From positions 1-30,077 of IMG/VR virus record IMGVR_UViG_3300034418_009393: DNA of 30,077 nt. One strand, written 5' to 3'. Source of the stretch: a virus. The notes under the pieces are model-generated. The model saw only the letters and a program-made list of their open reading frames with translations. It was not told where the DNA came from and did no database searches. Position 1 is the first letter of the stretch. Every line of letters begins with the position of its first letter. Positions 16,953 to 28,466 of the stretch are shown one piece after another. Made by a program: the position numbers and the translations under genes.

Positions 16953-19748
16953 GTGCCGACCGAACGTATTGACATAGTCGTATCCGAGCGAGGCTCTCGC
17001 CGGGTACGTCGTAACATTGAGGACGTAGGGTCTAGCGCCACCAAGTCAGGTAAGGCGGTAGGCTTCTTCACGTCTGAGCTCAAGCGTCTCGCCATCGGAG
17101 CCTCGGCGTCCGCAGCCCTCATAGGCGTCACACGCGCAGCCATCCAGTTCCAAGACGCCATGGCCGAGGTCTCGACTTTGGTCGACACGGCCGTGTTCGA
17201 CATGGACAGGCTCAAGCGAGCTGCTCTCGACCAGGCCGCAGCGTTCGGGCAACAGCCCGTCGCACAGGTGCAGGCCATATATCAGATAATCTCCGCCGGA
17301 GCCTCTTCGGCAGCCGACGCGACTGAACGCCTGGAGGCAGCCAACAAGCTGGCCGTGGGAGGCGTGACGGACGTGGCGACGGCTGCAGACGGCTTGACTT
17401 CCGTGCTCAATGCCTACGGGCCTCGCGTCGAAGGCGCGACTGCGGTCACGGACGCGTTGTTCGTAGCCATGAAGGCCGGCAAGACGACGATTGCGGAACT
17501 GTCGAGTGCCATAGGTAAGGTCGCTCCACTAGCCGCTCAGACCGGCGTGTCCTTCGATGAACTGCTCGCTTCAATCTCAGCCCTCACTAAGGGAGGCATC
17601 AAGACGACGGAAGCCGTCACGGGCGTGCGAGCCGTACTCGCCGCCGTGGCCAAACCGACCAAGGAGGCTTCCGACCTCGCGAACGCCCTAGGCATCGAGT
17701 TCAACGCGGCTGCACTCCAGTCCCTCGGCCTGGCGGGCTTCCTCGAGCAGCTCGTACAGAAGACGGGCGGCAGCACGGAGGCACTCGCTCAGCTGTTCGG
17801 TGGCGTGGAGGCCCTCATACCTGTCATGGCTCTGTCTGGTCAAGCGGGCGTCGACTTCGCTAATATCCTAGAGGATATGGCTGAGAAGGGCGGAGCTACT
17901 GAGGAGGCGTTCAACAAGATCGCCAACTCTCCGGGCTTCCAGCTCAACCGTGTCATGGCGGCGATAAAGGTAGAGGCCATCGAGCTAGGCTCCGCGATAG
18001 CCGACGCTCTCGTGCCTGCCATGAGGTTCCTCGCAGACAACCTGTCGAACATCATAGACCTGCTGAAGGTCGCGACAGCGGCTACGGCTGCCTACTACGC
18101 GACCGTACGAGGCGGAGCTCTAATCACGGCCGTGACCCAGTTGGTCGCCCTAGAGAAGGCACTCGGGGCCACGACTACGGCGCAGGCCCTAGCTTCTGCT
18201 GCCAGCAAGACGTTCACCCGAGCAACCGCGGGCGCCACCGGCGCCGTGCGAGCTCTGACCGTCGCACTCATCGCCAACCCGGTCGGAGCCCTCGTCGCTC
18301 TCATAGCCGGCGCGGTTACAGCCCTCGTCTTGTTCGGCGACCAGATAAGCGTGACGGGCGACGGTGTAGTGTCACTGCTCGACATCTTCCGAGCGCTCTT
18401 CAGCTTCGTGACCGACGCGCTAGGCCCCGTCGTCGAGTTCTTCAAAGACGCGTGGGATGGCACTGTGGACAGCGTGGGCGGATACCTCGGTAAACTGCTC
18501 CAGTTCTTCGTTGACGTGCTAGGCAAGGTCCTCGAGTTCGCGAAGGACGTCGTCAACAAGTACATCGGGCTTTGGGTCGGAGCCGTACAGGCCGTCATCG
18601 CCGCTTGGGGCATCTTCCCGGACGCATTGAAGGACATATTCATTCAGGCCCTCAACGGGGCCATCGGCCTGGTCGAGAGCGGCATCAACAAGATGATCGG
18701 CCTGCTCAACGAGCTGCCCGGCGTAGACATAGGCGCCGTACAGTTCGAGGAGTTCGAGAACAACGCTGCTGGAGCCGCGGCTCAGCTAGGACAAGCAGTG
18801 TCCGGAGCGTTCGGCGACGCGTTGAACCGAGACTACATCGGGGACGTGGCAAATGCCGTACTGGACCGCGCTCGTGAGATAGCAGAACGTCGCAGGGGTG
18901 AAGCAGTCGCAGACGCCGTCGCGCCGACAATCCCGACCGTGAACCCCGGGGGCATCAACATTCCGACGGCGGCTTCAGGCTCTAGCGGCGCAGCCGCTCA
19001 AGACGCTGAGAAGCTGAACGACGCGTTGAAGCTGCAGAAGGAACTGCTCGAAGGCATCCGTGGTCCCGCGACTGACTACGGTCAGAAGCTCGACGCCCTG
19101 TCCGCACTGCTCGACAAAGGCAAGATCAGCCTGGACGAGTACGAGAACGCGGTTCGAGACGTACGCATCGAGTTCCTCGAGAGCCAGACGGACTTCACTT
19201 CCGGCTTCGAGCGCGGACTGCTCAAGATACAGCGCGACATAGACGACGTGGCCTCCCAGATCGAGGACGCTCTTACGAACGCCTTCCGCGGCGCAGAGGA
19301 CGCACTCGTCGAGTTCGTGACGACCGGCAAGCTCGACTTCAAGTCCCTCGCAGAGAGCATCATCGCTGACCTGGCTCGCATAGCCATACGTCAGGCAATC
19401 ATCAAGCCCCTGACGAACGCCCTAGGGTCGTTCGCTAGCAGCTTCGGCGGGGGTTTTGGAGGAGGAGGCTTCGGTGGCGGCGGAGGAGGCCTAGGCTTTG
19501 CCACGGGCGGCGGCTTCACAGTCGGCGGCGGAGGCGGGGTTGACAGTCAGCTTGTACAGTTCCGAGCGTCACCGGGTGAGCGCGTGAACATCACACGTCC
19601 AGGCGAGAACCCCTCTGACGGCGGCGGAGGTCCTCGTCAAGTGGTATTCAATATCTCGACGCCGGACGTCCAAGGCTTCCGACAGTCAGAGGCTCAGATC
19701 GCTGCTCGCATGCAACGGATCGCTTCACGCGGAGACAGGGTGAGATAA
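16953..19748 (+). CDS. Tail tape measure protein
   Basis: The 931-aa product uses a GTG start behind GGAGG. After a basic N-terminus (SERGSRRVRR) it has the TP901-type core: AAIQFQDAMAEVSTLVDTAV (62-81), QAAAFGQQPVAQVQAIYQII (94-113), VGGVTDVATAADGLTSVLNA (135-154) and ELLASISALTKGGIKTTEAV (203-222). A strongly hydrophobic stretch (VRALTVALIANPVGALVALI at 432-451 plus AGAVTALVLF) may insert into the host membrane during DNA ejection. The C-terminal ~100 residues are Gly rich (FGGGFGGGGFGGGGGGLG) with an FRASPGERVNITRPG end. At about 1.5 angstrom per residue it would set a tail of roughly 140 nm. It is the longest gene except the hub. Confidence 0.94.
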   Translation: MPTERIDIVVSERGSRRVRRNIEDVGSSATKSGKAVGFFTSELKRLAIGASASAALIGVTRAAIQFQDAMAEVSTLVDTAVFDMDRLKRAALDQAAAFGQQPVAQVQAIYQIISAGASSAADATERLEAANKLAVGGVTDVATAADGLTSVLNAYGPRVEGATAVTDALFVAMKAGKTTIAELSSAIGKVAPLAAQTGVSFDELLASISALTKGGIKTTEAVTGVRAVLAAVAKPTKEASDLANALGIEFNAAALQSLGLAGFLEQLVQKTGGSTEALAQLFGGVEALIPVMALSGQAGVDFANILEDMAEKGGATEEAFNKIANSPGFQLNRVMAAIKVEAIELGSAIADALVPAMRFLADNLSNIIDLLKVATAATAAYYATVRGGALITAVTQLVALEKALGATTTAQALASAASKTFTRATAGATGAVRALTVALIANPVGALVALIAGAVTALVLFGDQISVTGDGVVSLLDIFRALFSFVTDALGPVVEFFKDAWDGTVDSVGGYLGKLLQFFVDVLGKVLEFAKDVVNKYIGLWVGAVQAVIAAWGIFPDALKDIFIQALNGAIGLVESGINKMIGLLNELPGVDIGAVQFEEFENNAAGAAAQLGQAVSGAFGDALNRDYIGDVANAVLDRAREIAERRRGEAVADAVAPTIPTVNPGGINIPTAASGSSGAAAQDAEKLNDALKLQKELLEGIRGPATDYGQKLDALSALLDKGKISLDEYENAVRDVRIEFLESQTDFTSGFERGLLKIQRDIDDVASQIEDALTNAFRGAEDALVEFVTTGKLDFKSLAESIIADLARIAIRQAIIKPLTNALGSFASSFGGGFGGGGFGGGGGGLGFATGGGFTVGGGGGVDSQLVQFRASPGERVNITRPGENPSDGGGGPRQVVFNISTPDVQGFRQSEAQIAARMQRIASRGDRVR

Positions 19749-19749
19749 G

Positions 19750-20517
19750 ATGACAGACTTTCACGAGGTCCGGTTCCCGGACGACATAAGCAAGGGCTCG
19801 AGTGGCGGGCCGACACGTAGGACCGACATCGTCGAGCTCGTGTCAGGGCACGAGAAGAGGAATGCGGCTCAAGCAAACTCGAAGCGTATGTACGATGCAG
19901 GCATCGGACTTAGAAATGTACAACATTTACATGCAATAATAGAATTTTGGGAGGCACGCTTCGGACAGCTATATGGCTTTAGATGGAAAGACTGGCTTGA
20001 TTATAAAAGCAGCCGGGGAAAAGCTCAGCCTTCAGCCATAGATCAGGTACTAGGTACCGGAGACGGCACTAACACAGTCTACAAAGTCTACAAGACTTAC
20101 GGTGGCCCCGAAACAGCTTTTTACACTCGTAGGATTACAAAACTAGTGGAAGACAGCGTATTAGTTGCGCTAAACGGGACAGAGACCGACGAGTATTTGT
20201 ACTCAGTAAATAAGGGCTTAATAATTTTCTTCAGTCCTCCGAGCGCAGGCGCTAAAATTACTGCGGGCTACGAGTTTGACGTTCCAGTTAGGTTTAATGC
20301 AGACAGTCTTATGATTAGTATTGATGCTTTTGAGGCGGGCTCAGTGCCAGCAGTAGAGATACGAGAACTAAAGCTTCAAGAGGCACCGGTTCCTATCGAG
20401 GCACAATATGCCGTAGATATTGCAGCAGTTTATGGCCTTAACGCCCTAATTGATTTGGCTAACAAACTCGACAACACAGTTAACGTGGTCTATCCTGGAG
20501 TGCTATCATGCCCGTAA
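19750..20517 (+). CDS. Distal tail protein, GTA gp12-like (DUF2460)
   Basis: The 255-aa product has the DUF2460 pattern: MTDFHEVRFPDDISKGSSGG, then RTDIVELVSGHEKRNAAQAN, FWEARFGQLYGFRWKDWLDY and the DQVLGTGDGTNTVYKVYKTY strands, then ITAGYEFDVPVRFNADSLMI near residues 176-195. In the Rhodobacter GTA the protein forms the distal ring between tail tube and hub. The last ~50 residues (AVEIRELKLQEAPVPIEAQY, AVDIAAVYGLNALIDLANKL) extend beyond the usual end and lie in an AT-richer tract. The composition changes within the gene around 19,910, which marks a mosaic joint. It overlaps the next gene by 10 bp. Confidence 0.9.
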   Translation: MTDFHEVRFPDDISKGSSGGPTRRTDIVELVSGHEKRNAAQANSKRMYDAGIGLRNVQHLHAIIEFWEARFGQLYGFRWKDWLDYKSSRGKAQPSAIDQVLGTGDGTNTVYKVYKTYGGPETAFYTRRITKLVEDSVLVALNGTETDEYLYSVNKGLIIFFSPPSAGAKITAGYEFDVPVRFNADSLMISIDAFEAGSVPAVEIRELKLQEAPVPIEAQYAVDIAAVYGLNALIDLANKLDNTVNVVYPGVLSCP

Positions 20518-22440
20518 CATTAGAACAATTGACTACTCGGCTAGAAAACATTGACGTTGACGCCAACACACTGGGCAAGATTGTCAACGACGCCGCAGAC
20601 ACACCAAACGCCGGGCAGCCCAGCGGTACGGTTACAACACGCAGCGGGAATGTAGTCAAAAATGCAGCGCGAGTATTGCAAGACCTTCGGCAGAATGCAA
20701 CTTACAAAGTGCCAGTAGATTTCGGGGCAGGTTTACTCGTCGATGATCCGGCTTTCACCGTACGCTATAATGGTAATATATATGCTCCTTCAAATGACTC
20801 TCCAAATTTTACGACAACTGCAACTTTTGTGCCCACTGAATGGGAGTTAGTTGCAAACCGTTCAGGAATGCCCTGGTTTGCGGAAATTTGTGCGGATGGG
20901 GTCTGGCGGGTCATTCTTGTAAAAATGGGGCAGTCGAATGCCGTCGGTAAGGGGGAAACGGGAGGTATAACTGCGTACAACTCCCTAGTCAAAGTGTATG
21001 ATCAGCCTAACAATCAGATAGTCGAAGCAACTTATGGCTTTTTTAACACGCCAGACGCTGCGGACATGGGCCTGACTACTGCGCATCGTATTGCTGAAAA
21101 ATACGGCGTCGAAGTTATTGTGGTCGACAACGCGCAAGGGGGCTTATCGATTGACAACTGGCACGAACCTCTGCAGGGAAACTCGGCTCCGACGCTAAAC
21201 ATGTGGACGCCGCTAACAACTGACGTACCGGCCGCACTTAGTCTCGCAGGGGCCACTAAGGCTCACATTCTATTTGCGCAAGGGGAGTCTGACTCGAATA
21301 TGCCCCTTGACGAATATTACATAAAACTAGATGCCATCATCGACGATCTGATTGACAACCAGCCCTGGTTTGTCCGGGGTTTTTCGTTGTTCATGGACGT
21401 TGAAATGGGCACAGCAAACCTGGCGGGCAAGTCAGACAAGCAGATATGGTCGAAGCAGTTGCTTTCAGGCAAAAGACCTGATATTCATAAAATTTTGCGG
21501 ACTAGACTTATGCCAATGAAGGACGCTCTGCATTTTTCTGGAGAGTCTACAGACGCTATTGGTGCAATGGCTGAACAAACCCTTACCGCTCCAGCCTTGA
21601 ATACGTCAGTTGACGCATATATAGCTGATAATTCCATAATTGACTTACACCCAACAGGCACGACCGGAGTGCTTTTTAACAACCTACAAGATATTTGGTA
21701 CGCGGTTTCGGCTTCTCGCATTGAACCGTCTAAAATAGTCATAATAAATCTTAAGCCCGGAGACCATATCTATAAAAGTTTGGTAGTTGACGCAGCTAAT
21801 TCTAATCAGATTATTTTCAGAGGAGCTCCCGTATCTGGCACTGAGCCTACTGCTTCTAATCTTACTGGAACGTATTCTACCGATCTTAGTGCTTGGGAAA
21901 GCTACTGGCCTTCGCGTTTGCGTCCTACAGGACAAGCTTTAGCTCTCGTGTCTCCGGTCCATGCTTTTGAAAACCTTTTAATAGCGGCAGACGTGAATGC
22001 CGACGGAGTTGTGTTAGGCTCTGAAACGGGGGACAGATATTCGGGTTCAAGCCAGTTTAAGAAAGTAGGTATCATAGGTTTCAATGAGGCTGGGGTTGAA
22101 GGTCGTTATGGTGGAAAACTTTTTGCCCCGGGGGCCTTAGGCAGCCCCGAGTTGTATATATCTCATTGTCAAGATGCATTAAAACTCAACGGCGCTCAGG
22201 TCTGGACGCAAGGAGCTTTAATTTCGCGAAATTTGCGATACGGAGTATATTGTGGCGGATTTTCCGACGCTTATGTTGACAATGCAGACATTGTAAACAA
22301 TGCCTCTAATGATCTTTTTGTTGCCGGAGAGGCTCGGGCGACAATTCAGGCAAAGAACATGCTAACTGCTACTACGTCTAACCGGACTTATAATTCTACA
22401 GGAGGCTGGGGGCAAACAGTTTACGGCAATGATGGGGCTA
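19910..22440. other. AT-richer island with receptor-recognition module
   Basis: From about 19,910 to about 22,440 the sequence switches to AT-ending codons and many TA/AT runs, while the regions before and after are GC-rich with GC-ending codons. The left border lies inside the DUF2460 coding sequence and the right border falls at or just inside the start of the DUF2163 gene. The island holds the esterase-spike gene and the DUF2460 C-terminal part. This is judged by eye, without computed values. It fits acquisition of a host-range module by homologous exchange. Confidence 0.7.
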
Positions 22441-22445
22441 GGTAG
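20508..22445 (+). CDS. Tail fibre/spike with SGNH (SASA-type) esterase domain
   Basis: The 645-aa protein has an N-terminal part (about 1-125) that may attach it to the tail. An SGNH/sialate O-acetylesterase-like domain follows, with GQSN (nucleophile Ser143), AQGGLS (209-214), QGESD (258-262) and DALH (Asp339, His342), giving a complete catalytic dyad and conserved blocks. From about 380 a repetitive beta-rich region (NRSIIDLHP..., VVLGSETGDRYSGSSQFKKV) suggests a right-handed beta-helix, common in tail spikes. It probably removes acetyl groups from surface polysaccharide or deacetylates a receptor. The whole gene is visibly AT-richer than its neighbours. It interrupts the usual DUF2460-DUF2163 order and replaces the C-terminal part of the DUF2460 gene. 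Confidence 0.85.
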   Translation: MPVTLEQLTTRLENIDVDANTLGKIVNDAADTPNAGQPSGTVTTRSGNVVKNAARVLQDLRQNATYKVPVDFGAGLLVDDPAFTVRYNGNIYAPSNDSPNFTTTATFVPTEWELVANRSGMPWFAEICADGVWRVILVKMGQSNAVGKGETGGITAYNSLVKVYDQPNNQIVEATYGFFNTPDAADMGLTTAHRIAEKYGVEVIVVDNAQGGLSIDNWHEPLQGNSAPTLNMWTPLTTDVPAALSLAGATKAHILFAQGESDSNMPLDEYYIKLDAIIDDLIDNQPWFVRGFSLFMDVEMGTANLAGKSDKQIWSKQLLSGKRPDIHKILRTRLMPMKDALHFSGESTDAIGAMAEQTLTAPALNTSVDAYIADNSIIDLHPTGTTGVLFNNLQDIWYAVSASRIEPSKIVIINLKPGDHIYKSLVVDAANSNQIIFRGAPVSGTEPTASNLTGTYSTDLSAWESYWPSRLRPTGQALALVSPVHAFENLLIAADVNADGVVLGSETGDRYSGSSQFKKVGIIGFNEAGVEGRYGGKLFAPGALGSPELYISHCQDALKLNGAQVWTQGALISRNLRYGVYCGGFSDAYVDNADIVNNASNDLFVAGEARATIQAKNMLTATTSNRTYNSTGGWGQTVYGNDGAR

Positions 22446-23344
22446 TGAAGAAATTATCTGCAGCTCTTCAAGACCACTTGGACGGCGAAGCAACAACCAT
22501 GTGCTACTGCTGGCGGGTGACTCGTACGGACGGTATCGTTCAGGGCTTTACCGAACACGACGAAGATATCACGTTTGCGGGAACCACGTTTCTTGCGTCC
22601 TCGGGCTTCACGGCCACTCAGGTGCAACATAGTCTGGGTCTCGCAGTTGACAACCTAAACGTCGACGGCGCCTTGTCGAGCGACACGCTCAACGAAGATG
22701 ACCTGGCAGCAGGCAAGTATGATGACGCGTTTGTCGAGCTCTTTTGGGTGAACTGGGCAGACGTGTCTCAGAGGATACTCAAGCAGACCGGGTACACGGG
22801 AGAGACGCAACGGACCGGCTTGGCGTTCTCTGCAGAGCTGCGAGGCCTCAGCACCCGTCTCGGGCAGACGCAGACGCGAACCTTCAAGCGAACGTGTGAC
22901 GCGATAGTCGGCGACGCGGCTTGTAAGATCGACCTAACCGCGTCAACGTTCCGGGGTGCCGGCGAGGTACAGGCCGTGTACTCCCCACGGTCGTTCTCGG
23001 CTACCGGCATAGCCTCATATGATAGCAAGTGGTTCGATCAGGGCATACTCACCTGGACGTCCGGCCCGGCGTCGGGCACGTCGATCGACGTCAAGGCCCA
23101 CGTCAAGGACGCGGGATTGGTGACTATCGAGCTATGGAACGCACCGGCCTTCGAGATCGAAGCAGGATGGGACTTCAACGTGACGGCCGGCTGTCAGAAG
23201 ACCGTAGGCATGTGCACCACGAAGTTCAACAACCTCGTTAACTTCAGGGGCTTCCCGGCAATGCCAGGCTCCGACGCAGTCATCCGCAACCCCGACCCGT
23301 CTGCTCGCAACACCGGGTCTAGCACGACATCGAGTTCGAAGTGA
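22445..23344 (+). CDS. Tail hub protein, GTA gp13-like (DUF2163)
   Basis: The 299-aa product starts at a GTG overlapping the previous stop. It begins MKKLSAALQDHLDGEATTMC, YCWRVTRTDGIVQGFTEHDE, matching the DUF2163 family, and ends with the C-terminal hallmark TAGCQKTVGMCTTKFNNLVN, FRGFPAMPG. Four cysteines, Cys151 and Cys160 (CDAIVGDAAC) plus Cys250 and Cys257, form a cluster suited to metal or iron-sulphur binding. Published GTA hub structures and lambda gpL report Fe-S binding in this family, from memory. It forms the hub ring at the tail tip. Codon use returns to high GC within its first 50 bases. Confidence 0.9.
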   Translation: MKKLSAALQDHLDGEATTMCYCWRVTRTDGIVQGFTEHDEDITFAGTTFLASSGFTATQVQHSLGLAVDNLNVDGALSSDTLNEDDLAAGKYDDAFVELFWVNWADVSQRILKQTGYTGETQRTGLAFSAELRGLSTRLGQTQTRTFKRTCDAIVGDAACKIDLTASTFRGAGEVQAVYSPRSFSATGIASYDSKWFDQGILTWTSGPASGTSIDVKAHVKDAGLVTIELWNAPAFEIEAGWDFNVTAGCQKTVGMCTTKFNNLVNFRGFPAMPGSDAVIRNPDPSARNTGSSTTSSSK

Positions 23345-23793
23345 TGACCCCTGTAGAAATAGCTCGCGACTGGATAGGAACGCCGTACCATCACCAAGAG
23401 AGCGTGAAGGCGGCAGGAACGGACTGCCTCGGCCTAATTCGCGGAGTGTGGCGCGAGCTGTACGGTGCCGAACCGGAAGCACCGCCTCCGTACACACAGA
23501 CTTGGGGCGACTACTCCAAGAGAGAGACGCTCCTCGAGGCCGCGTACCGGAACCTCGAACTGGTGGCCATGGCCGAGAACAAGAGGTTCGTGGTCAGGCC
23601 GAGAGACAAACACTGGGAACCCGGAGCCGTGCTGGTATTCCGTCGCACCCCCGGCGCCGTCGCCAAGCACTGTGCCATCCTCTCTGGAGACGAGAGCATG
23701 GTCCACGCCTATAGTGGTGTTGGCGTGCGGGAGACTAGCGTAGGTATTTGGGACAAGCGCGTGGCTGGCATATTCAGGTTTCCGGGCCACTGA
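23344..23793 (+). CDS. NlpC/P60 cell-wall peptidase, GTA gp14-like
   Basis: I start at ATG 23344 (MTPVEIARDWIGTPYHHQES), although a GTG at 23341 also reads in frame. The 149-aa product has catalytic Cys28 in TDCLGLIRGVWREL, His109 in AKHCAIL and a candidate third residue His121 in VHAYSG. The family hydrolyses peptide bonds in peptidoglycan, and the phage version locally opens the wall during DNA entry. It sits between hub and megatron genes, the standard GTA order. Its start overlaps the stop of the hub gene. Confidence 0.93.
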   Translation: MTPVEIARDWIGTPYHHQESVKAAGTDCLGLIRGVWRELYGAEPEAPPPYTQTWGDYSKRETLLEAAYRNLELVAMAENKRFVVRPRDKHWEPGAVLVFRRTPGAVAKHCAILSGDESMVHAYSGVGVRETSVGIWDKRVAGIFRFPGH

Positions 23794-23811: not shown

Positions 23812-26800
23812 ATGGCCACATACGTCTTAGGAGCTGTGGGTACAGCCATCGGCGGACCGATCGGCGGAGCAATCGGCTCCGCGCTAGGTAGCCTCATAGA
23901 CGGCGCCATCATCGGAGCTCTCACTCCGGGCACCACCACGACAAACACAGGACCCCGACTGACCGAACTCTCGTTGACGACGTCGACCGAGGGGGCGGTT
24001 GTTCCTCGCATATTCGGCAGGTGCCGCCTCGGTGGCCAGGTCATCTGGACTGCCCAGTTCAAGGAGACCGAGGTCGTCAACAGTCAGGAGAGCGGTGGCA
24101 AGGGAGGCGGGCCTACCCAGACCACCACTACCATCTCGTACGAGTATAGCCTCTCGTTTGCCGTCGCCTTTGCGGTCGGCAACCCTATGGCGCATCTCGG
24201 ACGTGTGTGGATTGACAGCATCGAGACTGACCTCTCGAAGTTCAGCTTCAAGTTCTATCCGGGCTCAGAGACCCAGCAGCCCGACCCGACCATCGAGGCG
24301 ATTGAGGGCTCGGGCAAGGTACCCGCCTACCGCGGCGTCGCGTATCTCGTGTTCGAGGACCTCCCCCTGGCCGACTACGGTAACCGCATGCCCCAGATCA
24401 CGGCAGAGATCGTTGTACCGCTAGAGACTGACGAGGCTGACGACCTGACTAACATCGGCGAGGCCTGGCAGTTGATCCCCGCGACCGGGGAGCACATCTA
24501 CGGCACACAGAAGTACACTCGGTCCGTGTCGAACAACTCCGGTGACGCGTCTAAGATCACCGAGAACATGCACAACAACTTCAACCAGCCTGACGTCGAG
24601 GTGTCGCTAGACATACTCGATCAGGTACAGCCGAACCTTGACGCGGTCTCGGTCGTTGTCTCTTGGTTCGGTACGGACCTCCGCGCCGGAGAGTGTCGTG
24701 TAATTCCGAAGGTAGAGGGACAGGACAGGTCCGTACAGCCGACCGACTGGGCAGTTGCGGGCTACACCCGATCCACGGCGGAGCTAGTGAGCTACGACGC
24801 CGAAGGCAATCCCATATTCGGAGGCACTCCGTCAGACGTCACGGTCCGCGAGCTGGTGTCCCACATCAAGAACGACCTCGGTAAGCGGGTAATGTTCTAC
24901 CCGTTCATCCTCATGGACGTGCCGTCCGGCAACAGCCTTCCCAATCCGTATTCAGACAACGCGGCTTCCAACGGGCAGGCCGTGTTCCCCTGGCGCGGAC
25001 GCATCACGTGCTCCCCGGCCCCGGGCTATGCGGGATCGCCGGACCAGACCGCTGCAGCGGCAACCCAGGTCAACAACTGGTTCACGCGCACCGAGGGCTA
25101 TAGGGCCATGGTGTTGCACTACGCCAACTTGCTCGACGACCTCATGGGGGCAGACGACGCGTTCGTCATTGGCTCGGAGCTCGTCGGCCTGACGAGTGTG
25201 CGTTCGAGCCCCGGCGCCGGTACTTATCCGGCCGTGACCCAACTCGCCACGTTGGCCGCCGACGTATCGGCCATACTACCCGGCGACGTGAAGGTGAGCT
25301 ACGCGGCCGACTGGTCCGAGTATCACTCGCACCGCCCGAACGACGGGACAAACGACGTCATATTCAACATGGACCCCCTCTGGTCTTCGCCTCACATCGA
25401 CTTCATCGGCATCGATAACTACCTGCCAATATCGGACTGGCGAGACGGTGCGGGGCACCTTGACTATGACGCCGTCAACGGCCCTGTCTCGATATATGAC
25501 AAGGACTACCTGGCCAGTAACATTGAGGGGGGAGAGTATTACGACTGGTTCTATGCCTCTACGGCTGACCGTAACAACCAGGTGCGGACGACGATCACAG
25601 ACGGTGATCCTGCGAACGAGCCCTGGATATATCGCCAGAAGGACATTCGCAACTGGTGGCAGAACGCCCACCATCATCGCCCGGGAGGGGCGCGTGTGAG
25701 CAGTAGCACTTCATGGACTGCCTCAAGCAAGCCTGTGTGGTTCACCGAGCTAGGAGCGCCGGCGATCGACAAGGCGACGAACCAACCAAACGTGTTCTAC
25801 GATCCTAAGAGCTCCGAGAGCTTCTTCCCTTATCACTCAAGCGGTCAACGGGACGACCTCATACAGCGTCTCTACCTTGAGGTCAGCCTGGCATATTGGA
25901 GGGACAACGGCGGGGCAATGATCGATCCGGCAAACATGTTCATCTGGACCTGGGACGCAAGACCGTTTCCTGCTTATCCTAAACGGACCGACGTGTGGTC
26001 TGACGGTGCACAGTGGGTGCTAGGGCACTGGTTGTCAGGTCGTATCGATGGAGCCGTGCTGCCTCGTCTCGTTAGGAAGCTATGCCTTGAGGCGGGACTA
26101 GCCGACAGTCAGATAGACGTCGAGGGTCTGTACGGGCCAGAAGCTCTGGTTCGAGGCCTGCTGATAGCGTCGAGCATGTCGGCTCGAGACATCATTGAGG
26201 CCTTATCGACGGCGTACCAGTTCAAGGGCTTCGAGAGCGAGGGCAAGATCAAGTTCGTCATGGACATCAACCAGAAGTCTACGGAGCTACCGCTTGACGA
26301 CCTCGTGTTGATAGGCGACGCGACTGCCCCGGTCACGGTGACACGCGGTCAAGAGACGGATTTGCCTAAGCGGGTAAACGTCTCGTACCTCGACGAGGTC
26401 AACAACTATCAGGCCGCCTCAATCGACGGACACAAGGGCACAGGCACTAGTCAAAACCAAATTGCCGTAGACTTCCCTCTCGTCTGGAGCGACGGCCAGG
26501 CTCGCGCGCTCGCGACCTCTTTGCTGTTCAAGGCATGGGCTGCACGTGAAAAGGGCGAGCTCGCTTTGCCTCATAGCTACATGTACCTCGACGCGGGTGA
26601 CTTGGTCCGAGTGCCAGTAGGCAATCGCTCGGTCACTGGCCAGGTGTCAAACATCGACGACGGCATCGCGCGTCGTGCGGAGTTCGTCGGCTTTGACTTG
26701 TCCATTCTGTCGTCTCCCCGCTACGAGACCGACCTCAAGCTGCCGATAGTGACTGACCTCACACCTCAGGTGGTGTTGCGTTTCATGAACCTGCCTCTCG

Positions 26801-27744
26801 TGTCTGAGGATGAGCTGTTGCCGTACTCTATGAGGCTGGCGGCAGGCGCCAGTGACGGAGCATGGCCGGGCGGCGTAGCGGTCCTACAGAGCGATGGAGC
26901 CGGAGGCTTTTCGCCCGTGCAGACCGTGGCGAACAGGACGACGATGGGCGCTCTAAGCGGTCAACTCTTCACCGGACCGACAAACGCCTGGGATCGCAAC
27001 GGTGAGATTTACGTCAACATGCTGAGCGGCGGTCTCTCGTCACTGACGGAGGAGCAGCTGTTACTGAGCAACACAAACGCCGTCGCCATCGAGAACACGG
27101 TTACCTCCGAGTGGGAGGTCGTGCAGTTTGCCAACGCGGACCTGCAGTCTTCGGGCGTTTATCGTCTGACAGGGCTGATACGCGGGCAGCTCGGCACCGA
27201 ACATGTGATGCGAGACCCTTATCCTGTCGACACCCGAGTCGTTTTCATTAACACTGTCTCAGTGGAAGCCCTTAAGGTTAGCCGCAACGTGGCAACGAAC
27301 GACACGCTTTATCGCTGGGGCCCTATAACCGTACCGACCGATGACGATCGCTTCGTAGAGGGTACTCGTCGGAGCACGATCGCAGGCTTCCGGCCCTATT
27401 CGCCTTGCGATATGAGACTGCAGCTTGATACGTCAAACGATGACTTGACAATCTCCTGGAAGCGTAGAACCCGTCTAGGTGGAGACGACTGGGAACAGAA
27501 CGAGGTTCCACTCAACGAGGAGAGCGAAGAGTACCGCCTCAGAGTGTATGACGACACTGGCGGGGCCCTGTTGCGGACAGAGGTACTTACCTCTCCCTCT
27601 TTCACCTATACTGCAGCCATGCAGACCGCCGACCATGGAACAACGAAGGCAGACGTCTTCCTACGCGTCAGTCAGTACGGCACCGAGTACGGAGCCTACG
27701 GACCTGAGTTGGAGGGAATGTTCTTCACAAGGAGCACGACATAA
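23812..27744 (+). CDS. Tail tip TIM-barrel protein, GTA gp15-like (megatron)
   Basis: The 1310-aa product starts after GAAGGAG with MATYVLGAVGTAIGGPIGGA, a hydrophobic Gly-rich segment. Residues about 390-700 hold the GTA TIM-barrel-like domain: YRAMVLHYANLLDDLMGADD, FVIGSELVGLTSVR, SYAADWSEYHSHRPNDG, DFIGIDNYLPISDWRDG and WFTELGAPAIDKATNQPNVF (Glu near 646). The next ~250 residues (LDDLVLIGDATAPVTVTRGQ, TDLPKRVNVSYLDEVNNYQA) are the phage tail domain also found in phage tip proteins (Phage-tail_3). The C-terminal part carries fibronectin-like strands. In the GTA this huge protein caps the tail and extends to contact the cell. Its 3' end overlaps the DUF2793 gene by 1 bp. Confidence 0.94.
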   Translation: MATYVLGAVGTAIGGPIGGAIGSALGSLIDGAIIGALTPGTTTTNTGPRLTELSLTTSTEGAVVPRIFGRCRLGGQVIWTAQFKETEVVNSQESGGKGGGPTQTTTTISYEYSLSFAVAFAVGNPMAHLGRVWIDSIETDLSKFSFKFYPGSETQQPDPTIEAIEGSGKVPAYRGVAYLVFEDLPLADYGNRMPQITAEIVVPLETDEADDLTNIGEAWQLIPATGEHIYGTQKYTRSVSNNSGDASKITENMHNNFNQPDVEVSLDILDQVQPNLDAVSVVVSWFGTDLRAGECRVIPKVEGQDRSVQPTDWAVAGYTRSTAELVSYDAEGNPIFGGTPSDVTVRELVSHIKNDLGKRVMFYPFILMDVPSGNSLPNPYSDNAASNGQAVFPWRGRITCSPAPGYAGSPDQTAAAATQVNNWFTRTEGYRAMVLHYANLLDDLMGADDAFVIGSELVGLTSVRSSPGAGTYPAVTQLATLAADVSAILPGDVKVSYAADWSEYHSHRPNDGTNDVIFNMDPLWSSPHIDFIGIDNYLPISDWRDGAGHLDYDAVNGPVSIYDKDYLASNIEGGEYYDWFYASTADRNNQVRTTITDGDPANEPWIYRQKDIRNWWQNAHHHRPGGARVSSSTSWTASSKPVWFTELGAPAIDKATNQPNVFYDPKSSESFFPYHSSGQRDDLIQRLYLEVSLAYWRDNGGAMIDPANMFIWTWDARPFPAYPKRTDVWSDGAQWVLGHWLSGRIDGAVLPRLVRKLCLEAGLADSQIDVEGLYGPEALVRGLLIASSMSARDIIEALSTAYQFKGFESEGKIKFVMDINQKSTELPLDDLVLIGDATAPVTVTRGQETDLPKRVNVSYLDEVNNYQAASIDGHKGTGTSQNQIAVDFPLVWSDGQARALATSLLFKAWAAREKGELALPHSYMYLDAGDLVRVPVGNRSVTGQVSNIDDGIARRAEFVGFDLSILSSPRYETDLKLPIVTDLTPQVVLRFMNLPLVSEDELLPYSMRLAAGASDGAWPGGVAVLQSDGAGGFSPVQTVANRTTMGALSGQLFTGPTNAWDRNGEIYVNMLSGGLSSLTEEQLLLSNTNAVAIENTVTSEWEVVQFANADLQSSGVYRLTGLIRGQLGTEHVMRDPYPVDTRVVFINTVSVEALKVSRNVATNDTLYRWGPITVPTDDDRFVEGTRRSTIAGFRPYSPCDMRLQLDTSNDDLTISWKRRTRLGGDDWEQNEVPLNEESEEYRLRVYDDTGGALLRTEVLTSPSFTYTAAMQTADHGTTKADVFLRVSQYGTEYGAYGPELEGMFFTRSTT

Positions 27745-28466
27745 TGGCCGATACTAACCACCTGCTCTTGCCGCTAATGTCAGCGGCACAGAGCCAGAAG
27801 CACTTGACCCACAACGACGCCATCATCATGCTGGACGCCCTCGTGCAGCTAGCCGTCATCGATCGCGACCTCGCCACTCCACCGGCTTCACCCAGCGAGG
27901 GGGACCGGTACATCGCGGCGTCCGGTGCCGCGGGCGCGTGGGTCGGAAGCGACTTCAACATCTTTTACTACACGAACGGTGCCTGGACAAAGATTGTTCC
28001 GAAGGCGGGCTTCCTTGCTTGGGTGGTCGACGAGCAACTGCTCGTCTTCTGGAACGGCAGCTCCTGGGCCCCGGTCAACGCGGTCACGGACCTCGCGGCT
28101 CAAGTTGTAACGGCGAATGGCGCGGGTACGGGCATTACGGTGGTCGACGAGCTGCTCACCGTGTCGGGTGCATCAACGACGAGCACCATCAGCTTCCCCA
28201 ACCGATCGATCATTCAGGCGGCTTCCGTACGCGTCGTAACGGCCGTCACGGGTGCGACGTCGTTTGACTGCGGCATAACGGGTGAGCTCAACAAGTTCGG
28301 AGGTTCACTAGGTATCGCAGCCGGTTCGACGAACGTAGGCGTTATAGGACCCACGGCCGTATACGCCAATACTCCCGTCATACTGACCGCGAACGGCTCG
28401 AACTTCACTGGAGGTGAGGTTCGCGTAGCCTTGCATTATGTGACAGCATCGGCACCATCGTCTTGA
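27744..28466 (+). CDS. DUF2793 tail fibre/tip protein
   Basis: The 240-aa product has the complete DUF2793 pattern: LPLMSAAQSQKHLTHNDAII, MLDALVQLAVIDRDLATPPA, SPSEGDRYIAASGAAGAWVG and the aromatic GAWTKIVPKAGFLAWVVDEQ. The C-terminal half (ISFPNRSIIQAASVRVVTAV, TGELNKFGGSLGIAAGSTNV) is a beta-rich add-on found in some family members. DUF2793 proteins occur next to GTA-like tip genes and are thought to form part of the receptor-facing fibre. With the esterase spike, this gives the phage two candidate host-recognition proteins. It starts on the megatron stop (TAATG). Confidence 0.88.
   Translation: MADTNHLLLPLMSAAQSQKHLTHNDAIIMLDALVQLAVIDRDLATPPASPSEGDRYIAASGAAGAWVGSDFNIFYYTNGAWTKIVPKAGFLAWVVDEQLLVFWNGSSWAPVNAVTDLAAQVVTANGAGTGITVVDELLTVSGASTTSTISFPNRSIIQAASVRVVTAVTGATSFDCGITGELNKFGGSLGIAAGSTNVGVIGPTAVYANTPVILTANGSNFTGGEVRVALHYVTASAPSS

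Follow-up and report, generated by a model that had tools for sequence, protein, structure and literature searches.

An AT-rich segment in a GTA-like phage tail cluster joins a predicted esterase tailspike to a replaced portion of the distal tail protein gene

The window analyzed here, one strand of a 30,077-base virus record (IMG/VR IMGVR_UViG_3300034418_009393), contains tail genes resembling those of gene transfer agents (GTAs), with a gene for a predicted tailspike placed between the gene for the DUF2460 protein, which is the distal tail protein (Dit), and the DUF2163 gene for the baseplate hub. The spike gene and the adjoining 3′ part of the Dit gene lie in a segment of foreign base composition, and it is probable that this segment is an exchangeable cassette for a Dit-docked spike, passed between GTA-like phages by homologous recombination. 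The receptor-binding cassette would have been taken up from an AT-richer phage of this kind. The foreign DNA starts within the conserved 5′ portion of the Dit gene and stops shortly after the hub gene start; it replaces the outer half of Dit (its insertion domain), adds a C-terminal tail of 47 residues and brings in the whole spike gene. The coordinates of the features are collected in Table 1.

From about 0.62, sliding GC content along the window drops to 0.44-0.50 in the region of about 19750 to 22500, beyond which it recovers to 0.60. Maximum-likelihood segmentation placed here an island with 46.9% GC, against 61.1% outside it, with support for the start extending over 19810-19923 and for the end over 22394-22789; the gain in log-likelihood of 97.1 exceeded the maxima obtained in 500 shuffles for each block size (21.3 for 60-nt blocks and 53.6 for 300-nt blocks). 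GC at third codon positions (GC3) was 0.40 for positions 19909-20517 and 0.44 for the spike gene; both flanking genes gave 0.72-0.73, and the other whole genes for which it was measured, 21 in number, gave 0.63-0.85. Because GC3 also falls, the island is not an effect of amino acid composition. A first-pass annotation of this DNA had proposed that the composition changes inside a coding sequence and returns near the next gene boundary. The shift is real, and a uniform GC is refuted, but the exact borders given did not hold: on the left, the compositional border lies about 40 nt before 19910, at about codon 40 of Dit, with protein similarity collapsing only at codon 83 (19996), while on the right it lies not at 22445 but about 30 nt inside the hub gene. 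One gene, for a spike of 645 residues, is enclosed. The same stretch recurs, at 99.94-100% nucleotide identity, in three further contigs, two of them (L003 and L004) spanning both borders and one (L002) the left border; an assembly chimera is ruled out, since the same junctions are present in separate contigs.

The DUF2460 protein (255 residues) matches Pfam PF09343 over the whole profile (1-205 of 205; E-value 2.5e-70, 236.5 bits against a cut-off of 30.4), as well as Rcc01695 of the gene transfer agent RcGTA (E-value 5e-59) and the Dit of phage R4C (E-value 5e-39), and its structure model aligns with the R4C Dit structure 8gtc_G at Z 15.0. By these matches, the protein is assigned as the distal tail protein of GTA-type baseplates. 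The same gene is labelled a glycoside hydrolase by PHROG 2913 and by several GenBank records, despite the Dit match to solved baseplates.

GC3 in the window Dit has dropped to 0.54 by codons 41-53 and to 0.31 by codons 54-82, yet amino acid identity to four near relatives (L005, L006, L008 and phage RcSimone-Hastad, L150) is still 0.69-0.86 over codons 41-82 and 0.76-0.86 in codons 54-82, and falls to only 0.37-0.50 in codons 83-120. Among the best matches listed, nucleotide homology to relatives that have no spike stops at 19995-20006 (Dit codons 82-86) and resumes at 22441-22499, -4 to 54 nt from the hub start. The simplest reading of these profiles is a crossover within a conserved part of Dit, beyond which the donor sequence diverges, in which case the donor would also have had a DUF2460 gene. 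The exchanged piece, as delimited by the alignments, is larger than the C-terminal extension named in the earlier annotation and comprises Dit codons from about 83 to 206, the 47-residue tail and the spike. A simple insertion of the spike gene, by a transposon or by illegitimate recombination, with later drift of the Dit 3′ end to low GC, would be in keeping with two other phages, L172 and L181, in which the spikes are lower in GC than their flanks and the Dits are not AT-rich. In the window, however, Dit codons from about 45 to 255 change together with the spike, the borders are common to two other phages, and no repeats were found at the island borders, the repeats present being short internal or low-identity ones; this explanation is disfavoured and most improbable. 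Transposition or insertion through flanking repeats is ruled out, as the borders are without repeats.

A comparable exchange is seen in the sister phages L044 and L100, which share 96% identity in Dit codons 1-83 and 0.81 identity in their hubs. Their nucleotide homology is 82% up to Dit codon 91, is absent until 25 nt inside the hub gene, and is then 79%; in the interval lie unrelated Dit tails of 48 and 46 residues, respectively, with a 723-residue GDSL-type protein in L044 and, in L100, a 665-residue protein of tail-fibre family phrog_4201 plus a 251-residue protein with a lectin-type match below cut-off. The 665-residue protein has no Pfam match and looks SGNH-like by motif only. Homology to spike-less relatives, among the best matches listed, stops at Dit codon 87 in L044 and 91 in L100 and resumes 6-33 nt and 3-29 nt from the hub start, respectively, and GC3 in L044 falls from 0.64 to 0.24 at Dit codon 83. 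As a control for ordinary divergence, Dit pairs with at least 0.95 identity in codons 1-83 were compared over codons 84-206, where 73 non-extended pairs keep at least 0.675 identity and five pairs including an extended Dit (L044 or L100) drop to 0.43-0.50; the window lacks a relative that close among those loci and so lies outside this comparison. Searches of viral contigs with the L100 and L044 spikes returned self matches only, and the body of the L100 spike has relatives of 25-26% identity in four Klebsiella phage records.

The protein carried by the island is a predicted SASA/SGNH esterase joined to a beta-helix tailspike. It matches the Pfam family SASA (PF03629) at 39.6 bits against a cut-off of 24.8 (E-value 5.9e-10), and the motifs G-Q-S143-N, Q-G-G212, Q-G-E260-S and D339-x-x-H342, which we take to be the catalytic Ser (S143) and Asp-x-x-His (D339 and H342) with their supporting blocks (G212 and E260), are all invariant in a homologue with 39-40% identity, in agreement with the complete active site proposed earlier. 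The earlier suggestion of a beta-helix is likewise upheld by the structure model, residues 341-645 of which align by VIA with 7chu_A at Z 18.2 over 225 residues (root-mean-square deviation 2.9), with several tailspikes matching the helix at Z 15-17. The mean predicted local distance difference test (pLDDT) score of the whole model is 47, and only residues from about 411 to 595 reach block means of 56-86; because the model is poor outside this part, the esterase call rests on the Pfam match and the motifs. A Foldseek search with the model gave nothing at an E-value of 0.001 or below, and a sequence search of solved structures with the spike alignment gave no match. In viral contigs, the spike had relatives in two contigs of a second phage (L085 and L086), apart from the three copies of the window phage; no relative was found in phage records, and genome contigs gave one remote SGNH match, in Chitinophaga.

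Such a protein might alternatively be a loosely attached or soluble polysaccharide esterase with no part in host recognition. RcGTA TspA is described as detaching and degrading biofilm (PMC13420450), and the window phage retains a DUF2793 tail fibre next to its spike, both of which would suit this alternative; against it, the gene sits between structural genes and overlaps them, and its counterparts in L100 and L085 match PHROG tail-fibre families, so that we consider it improbable.

The link between the Dit tail and the spike was followed in loci taken from three scans, each cut to its best 80 confirmed relatives (out of 536, 533 and 578, respectively), and from 16 phage regions; in the phage collection, 16 of 115 DUF2460 records were inspected, and L156 alone among these combines a tail with an insert. 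With identical Dit sequences counted once, this gave 197 distinct Dit loci, 196 of them closed and 195 with the hub in view. One locus with no Dit stop in its contig and L023, with no hub in view, were left out, and L106 and L223, where the hub match starts upstream of the Dit end (a negative gap), were counted as having no insert. Because each scan kept its best 80 relatives, the locus frequencies are not unbiased. A Dit tail of at least 8 residues beyond the domain end was present at all six loci with a spike or fibre gene between Dit and hub (8, 8, 46, 47, 48 and 107 residues) and at 2 of the 189 others (Fisher p = 4e-10); tails of at least 40 residues occurred at four of the six and at none of the 189. 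With one locus per 80% cluster the counts were 5/5 vs 2/132 (p = 5.6e-8), and with one per 60% cluster 5/5 vs 2/26 (p = 1.2e-4), p values that correct only partly for shared ancestry. The earlier annotation had asked whether the extension always occurs with a following fibre; in this sample it is almost confined to loci with an inserted spike.

Lysis-type genes occupy the same site in L021, L022, L023, L038 and L046 (four of them with the hub in view), and the Dit-hub boundary is therefore a general insertion site. By Pfam, the L046 insert is a phage lysozyme and that of L023 gives nothing above cut-off, while the inserts of L021, L022 and L038 were judged by eye to be of lysis type (lysozyme-like proteins or small membrane proteins) or, at any rate, not of spike type. 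Sequence beyond the Dit domain amounts to 1, 1, 1 and 1 residues at the four lysis-type loci with the hub in view, the truncated fifth locus likewise having no tail, and reaches 8 residues at 2 of the 185 loci with no insert. That the tail is a consequence of any insertion at this site is ruled out by the tail-less lysis-type loci. Scans targeted at the tail found, for the window, its own copies only, and gave L172 and L181 when the best 80 among 578 confirmed relatives were kept; neither these nor the viral scans revealed the same extension in phages that lack this spike type. The sole related extension, that of L100, is followed by another kind of spike, whose N-terminus is related to that of the window spike. 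An alternative place for a binding domain is seen in Erythrobacter phage L02 and Sphingobium phage Lacusarx (L158, L159), where Dit is followed by an enlarged gene with the annotation F5/8 type C.

The type of tail also goes with the type of spike anchor. In sets of 10 comparisons each, the tail ends of the window and L100 are alike (z 7.0, 0/1000 shuffles), as are their spike N-termini (z 6.3, 0/1000 shuffles), while window-L044 and L044-L100 share neither, even though the hub of the window is equally distant from those of L044 and L100 (0.49 identity to each). L172 and L181 have an identical 8-residue Dit tail, LPEPPLPA, and spikes (L172:1364-3727; L181:5165-7009) that are 78% identical in residues 1-162 with no match beyond; their outer parts are unrelated, with a phosphodiester glycosidase (Pfam NAGPA) in L181 and no Pfam family in L172, and no phage record matched the L172 anchor. 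In L156 (MW202657), the 107-residue tail and the N-terminal domain of the adjoining kelch-like protein are homologous (z 11.7). These comparisons support the conclusion that the Dit extension and the spike travel together, in the window and in independent phages. Two modes of change would follow, one in which dock and spike are exchanged together and one in which, as L172 and L181 suggest, the outer part of the spike is swapped on a kept anchor and Dit is left alone. A broader proposal may equally prove right or wrong: that GTA-like tails use a plug and socket, in which the Dit tail (8-107 residues) serves as a dock specific to one type of spike and is inherited along with that spike in a single cassette bounded by the two common recombination borders, in at least four unrelated types, namely VYPGxL (window and L100), L044, LPEPPLPA (L172 and L181) and the duplicated domain of L156.

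On the favoured, Dit-docked reading, the spike would consist of an N-terminal anchor, an SGNH acetylesterase and a beta-helix trimer, with its N-terminal segment held on the Dit ring through the Dit tail, the insertion domain or both, perhaps as six trimers like TspA on RcGTA, and it would remove acetyl groups from a host surface polysaccharide. TspA trimers of RcGTA are described as touching the Dit OB domain, the tail tube and the megatron (PMC13420450), and the C-terminal Arg209 of RcGTA Dit as taking part in hub and megatron binding (PMC13420450, PMC7296036); a tail leaving Dit at this residue would be expected to emerge at the Dit-hub joint. It is because TspA contacts Dit and Arg209 binds hub and megatron that a Dit-docked spike with the tail as its type-specific part is favoured, the chief rival being the insertion domain as the main dock. 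The Dit model, from 41 sequences, is confident across most of residues 84-205 and low for residues 1-42 and the tail, and the insertion domain within it (about 83-178) can be superposed on CBA120 TSP4, on domains of T4 gp10 and on the N-terminus of T7 gp17 at Z 4.7-7.5, although values of 4.7-8 can reflect common arrangements. The CBA120 XD2/XD3 and T4 gp10 domains are reported to bind other spikes or fibres (PMC8825819), and the R4C Dit insertion domain has been likened to part of the T7 fibre (PMC10276861).

Linkage could also account for the pattern, if the spike and the 3′ part of Dit move together through recombination in flanking conserved DNA, with the tail a by-product and the spike docked on the Dit insertion domain, as TspA is in RcGTA, or on the megatron. 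This explanation, which we consider unlikely, draws on a left border at codons 82-91 and not at the tail, on the exchange of the insertion domain in the window, L044 and L100, on the TspA contacts cited above, and on the 8-residue tails that are enough in L172 and L181. It is opposed by the near confinement of tails to spike loci and by the spike N-terminus type being tracked by the tail and not by the insertion domain. Several observations weigh against the tail as dock or against a cassette origin: the tail is predicted to be helical, but with pLDDT below 50; a Shine-Dalgarno-like sequence for the spike gene overlaps the codons for the PG of VYPG; L024 and L155 have 8-residue tails and no spike; L100 has no GC3 fall in Dit (0.62 to 0.61); insertion-domain identity ignores spike type (window-L100 0.32, window-L044 0.43); and, because tail and spike N-terminus adjoin in the DNA, their shared ancestry could reflect linkage alone. 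In addition, L085 (5965-7845; also in L086) encodes a protein related to the spike over its full length (39% identity across residues 10-640) and with a similar N-terminus (z 7.1), behind a 980-residue J-like tip (phrog_469; more weakly, central tail fibre J) whose C-terminus is unlike the window Dit tail, in a phage region with no DUF2460 match. This spike type therefore crosses tail architectures, which argues against a strict pairing of tail and spike. The first-pass view of the extension as the docking site consequently stands in part: tail and spike co-travel, but the whole insertion domain is exchanged too, and since that domain is the part described as holding TspA in RcGTA (PMC13420450), the extension need not be the sole dock.

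With dock and spike sharing one short segment between conserved sequences, a spike could be changed in one event with its fit kept, and a change of host range through cassette exchange is plausible. RcGTA offers the closest comparison, with a baseplate (Dit Rcc01695/g12, hub Rcc01696, megatron Rcc01698) to which the window corresponds in a homologous Dit and the same Dit-hub-peptidase-megatron order, and with TspA (Rcc02623) described as a beta-helix spike that acts on polysaccharide and is held in place around the ring of Dit (PMC13420450, PMC7296036). TspA differs in being encoded outside the main cluster and loosely bound, and RcGTA Dit ends at about residue 210, with no tail. Among the matches listed, the named phage closest to the window in its resident Dit and hub DNA is Rhodobacter phage RcSimone-Hastad (71.8% and 70.7% nucleotide identity), which has neither tail nor spike, its hub gene beginning before the Dit stop. 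Dit-held receptor-binding proteins are already known elsewhere: in lactococcal phage p2, the receptor-binding protein ORF18 is proposed to be held by its N-terminus in a Dit arm and hand, the arm being a galectin-domain insertion with binding seen in a structure (PMC7291167), whereas the window has a C-terminal tail on a DUF2460 Dit, to which binding is conjectural. Fibres with SGNH-type esterase domains and activity are also known, as in Klebsiella prophage receptor-binding proteins and coliphage G7C gp63.1 (PMC13123978); the window spike differs in that a single chain, belonging to a GTA-like siphophage tail, combines a SASA-type domain with a beta-helix.

TspA homologues are described as absent from GTA-like phages (PMC13420450), and the plug-and-socket proposal, if true, would explain how phages with RcGTA-like baseplates and no TspA acquire tailspikes. 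The observed pattern supplies a sequence rule, by which a Dit tail predicts an adjoining spike gene, and a testable dock for each spike type. GTA-like tails are common in alphaproteobacterial phages and gene transfer agents, and we did not find the carriage of exchangeable spikes by these phages described in the papers searched; among the papers listed, no title or abstract opening described a spike cassette between Dit and hub of GTA-like phages.

Table 1 Features of the spike-bearing segment and its neighbours (positions in the window)
Feature	Position	Strand	Basis
Tape measure protein, conserved neighbour	16953..19748	+	Profile match
DUF2460, distal tail protein (Dit), 255 aa	19750..20517	+	Pfam, RcGTA and R4C matches
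Dit codons 1-82, conserved core	19750..19995	+	Nucleotide homology to spike-less relatives ends 19995-20006
AT-rich island, imported	19869..22473	n/a	Maximum-likelihood borders and block shuffles
Dit codons 83-178, protruding insertion domain, exchanged	19996..20283	+	Identity drop and docking-type fold matches
Dit C-terminal tail, 47 aa, ending VYPGVLSCP, proposed dock	20374..20514	+	Alignments; docking inferred
Predicted tail spike, 645 aa, start overlapping Dit stop	20508..22445	+	Reading frame, Pfam
Spike N-terminal segment, residues 1-61, proposed anchor	20508..20690	+	Resembles L100 and L085 spike N-termini
Predicted SASA/SGNH esterase domain, residues 137-355; Ser143 codon 20934-20936	20916..21572	+	Pfam, motifs
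Predicted right-handed beta-helix, residues ~375-645	21630..22442	+	Structure model, VIA
DUF2163 / baseplate hub; right exchange border in first ~55 nt	22445..23344	+	PF09931 E 3.9e-55; homology restart 22441-22499
NlpC/P60 peptidase, conserved neighbour	23341..23793	+	Profile match
GTA_TIM megatron, conserved neighbour	23812..27744	+	Profile matches
DUF2793 tail-fibre-type protein, kept beside spike	27744..28466	+	Profile matches

The GTA-like order of tape measure, Dit, hub, peptidase and megatron is preserved in the window apart from the single spike gene between Dit and hub, which, as first noted, interrupts the DUF2460-DUF2163 order. A muramidase gene and then a spanin-like gene lie 3′ of the DUF2793 gene. 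Composition also differs in positions 1-2500 of the window, where GC is 0.49-0.57 in places and there are reading frames on the reverse strand, one of them weakly alpha/beta hydrolase-like.

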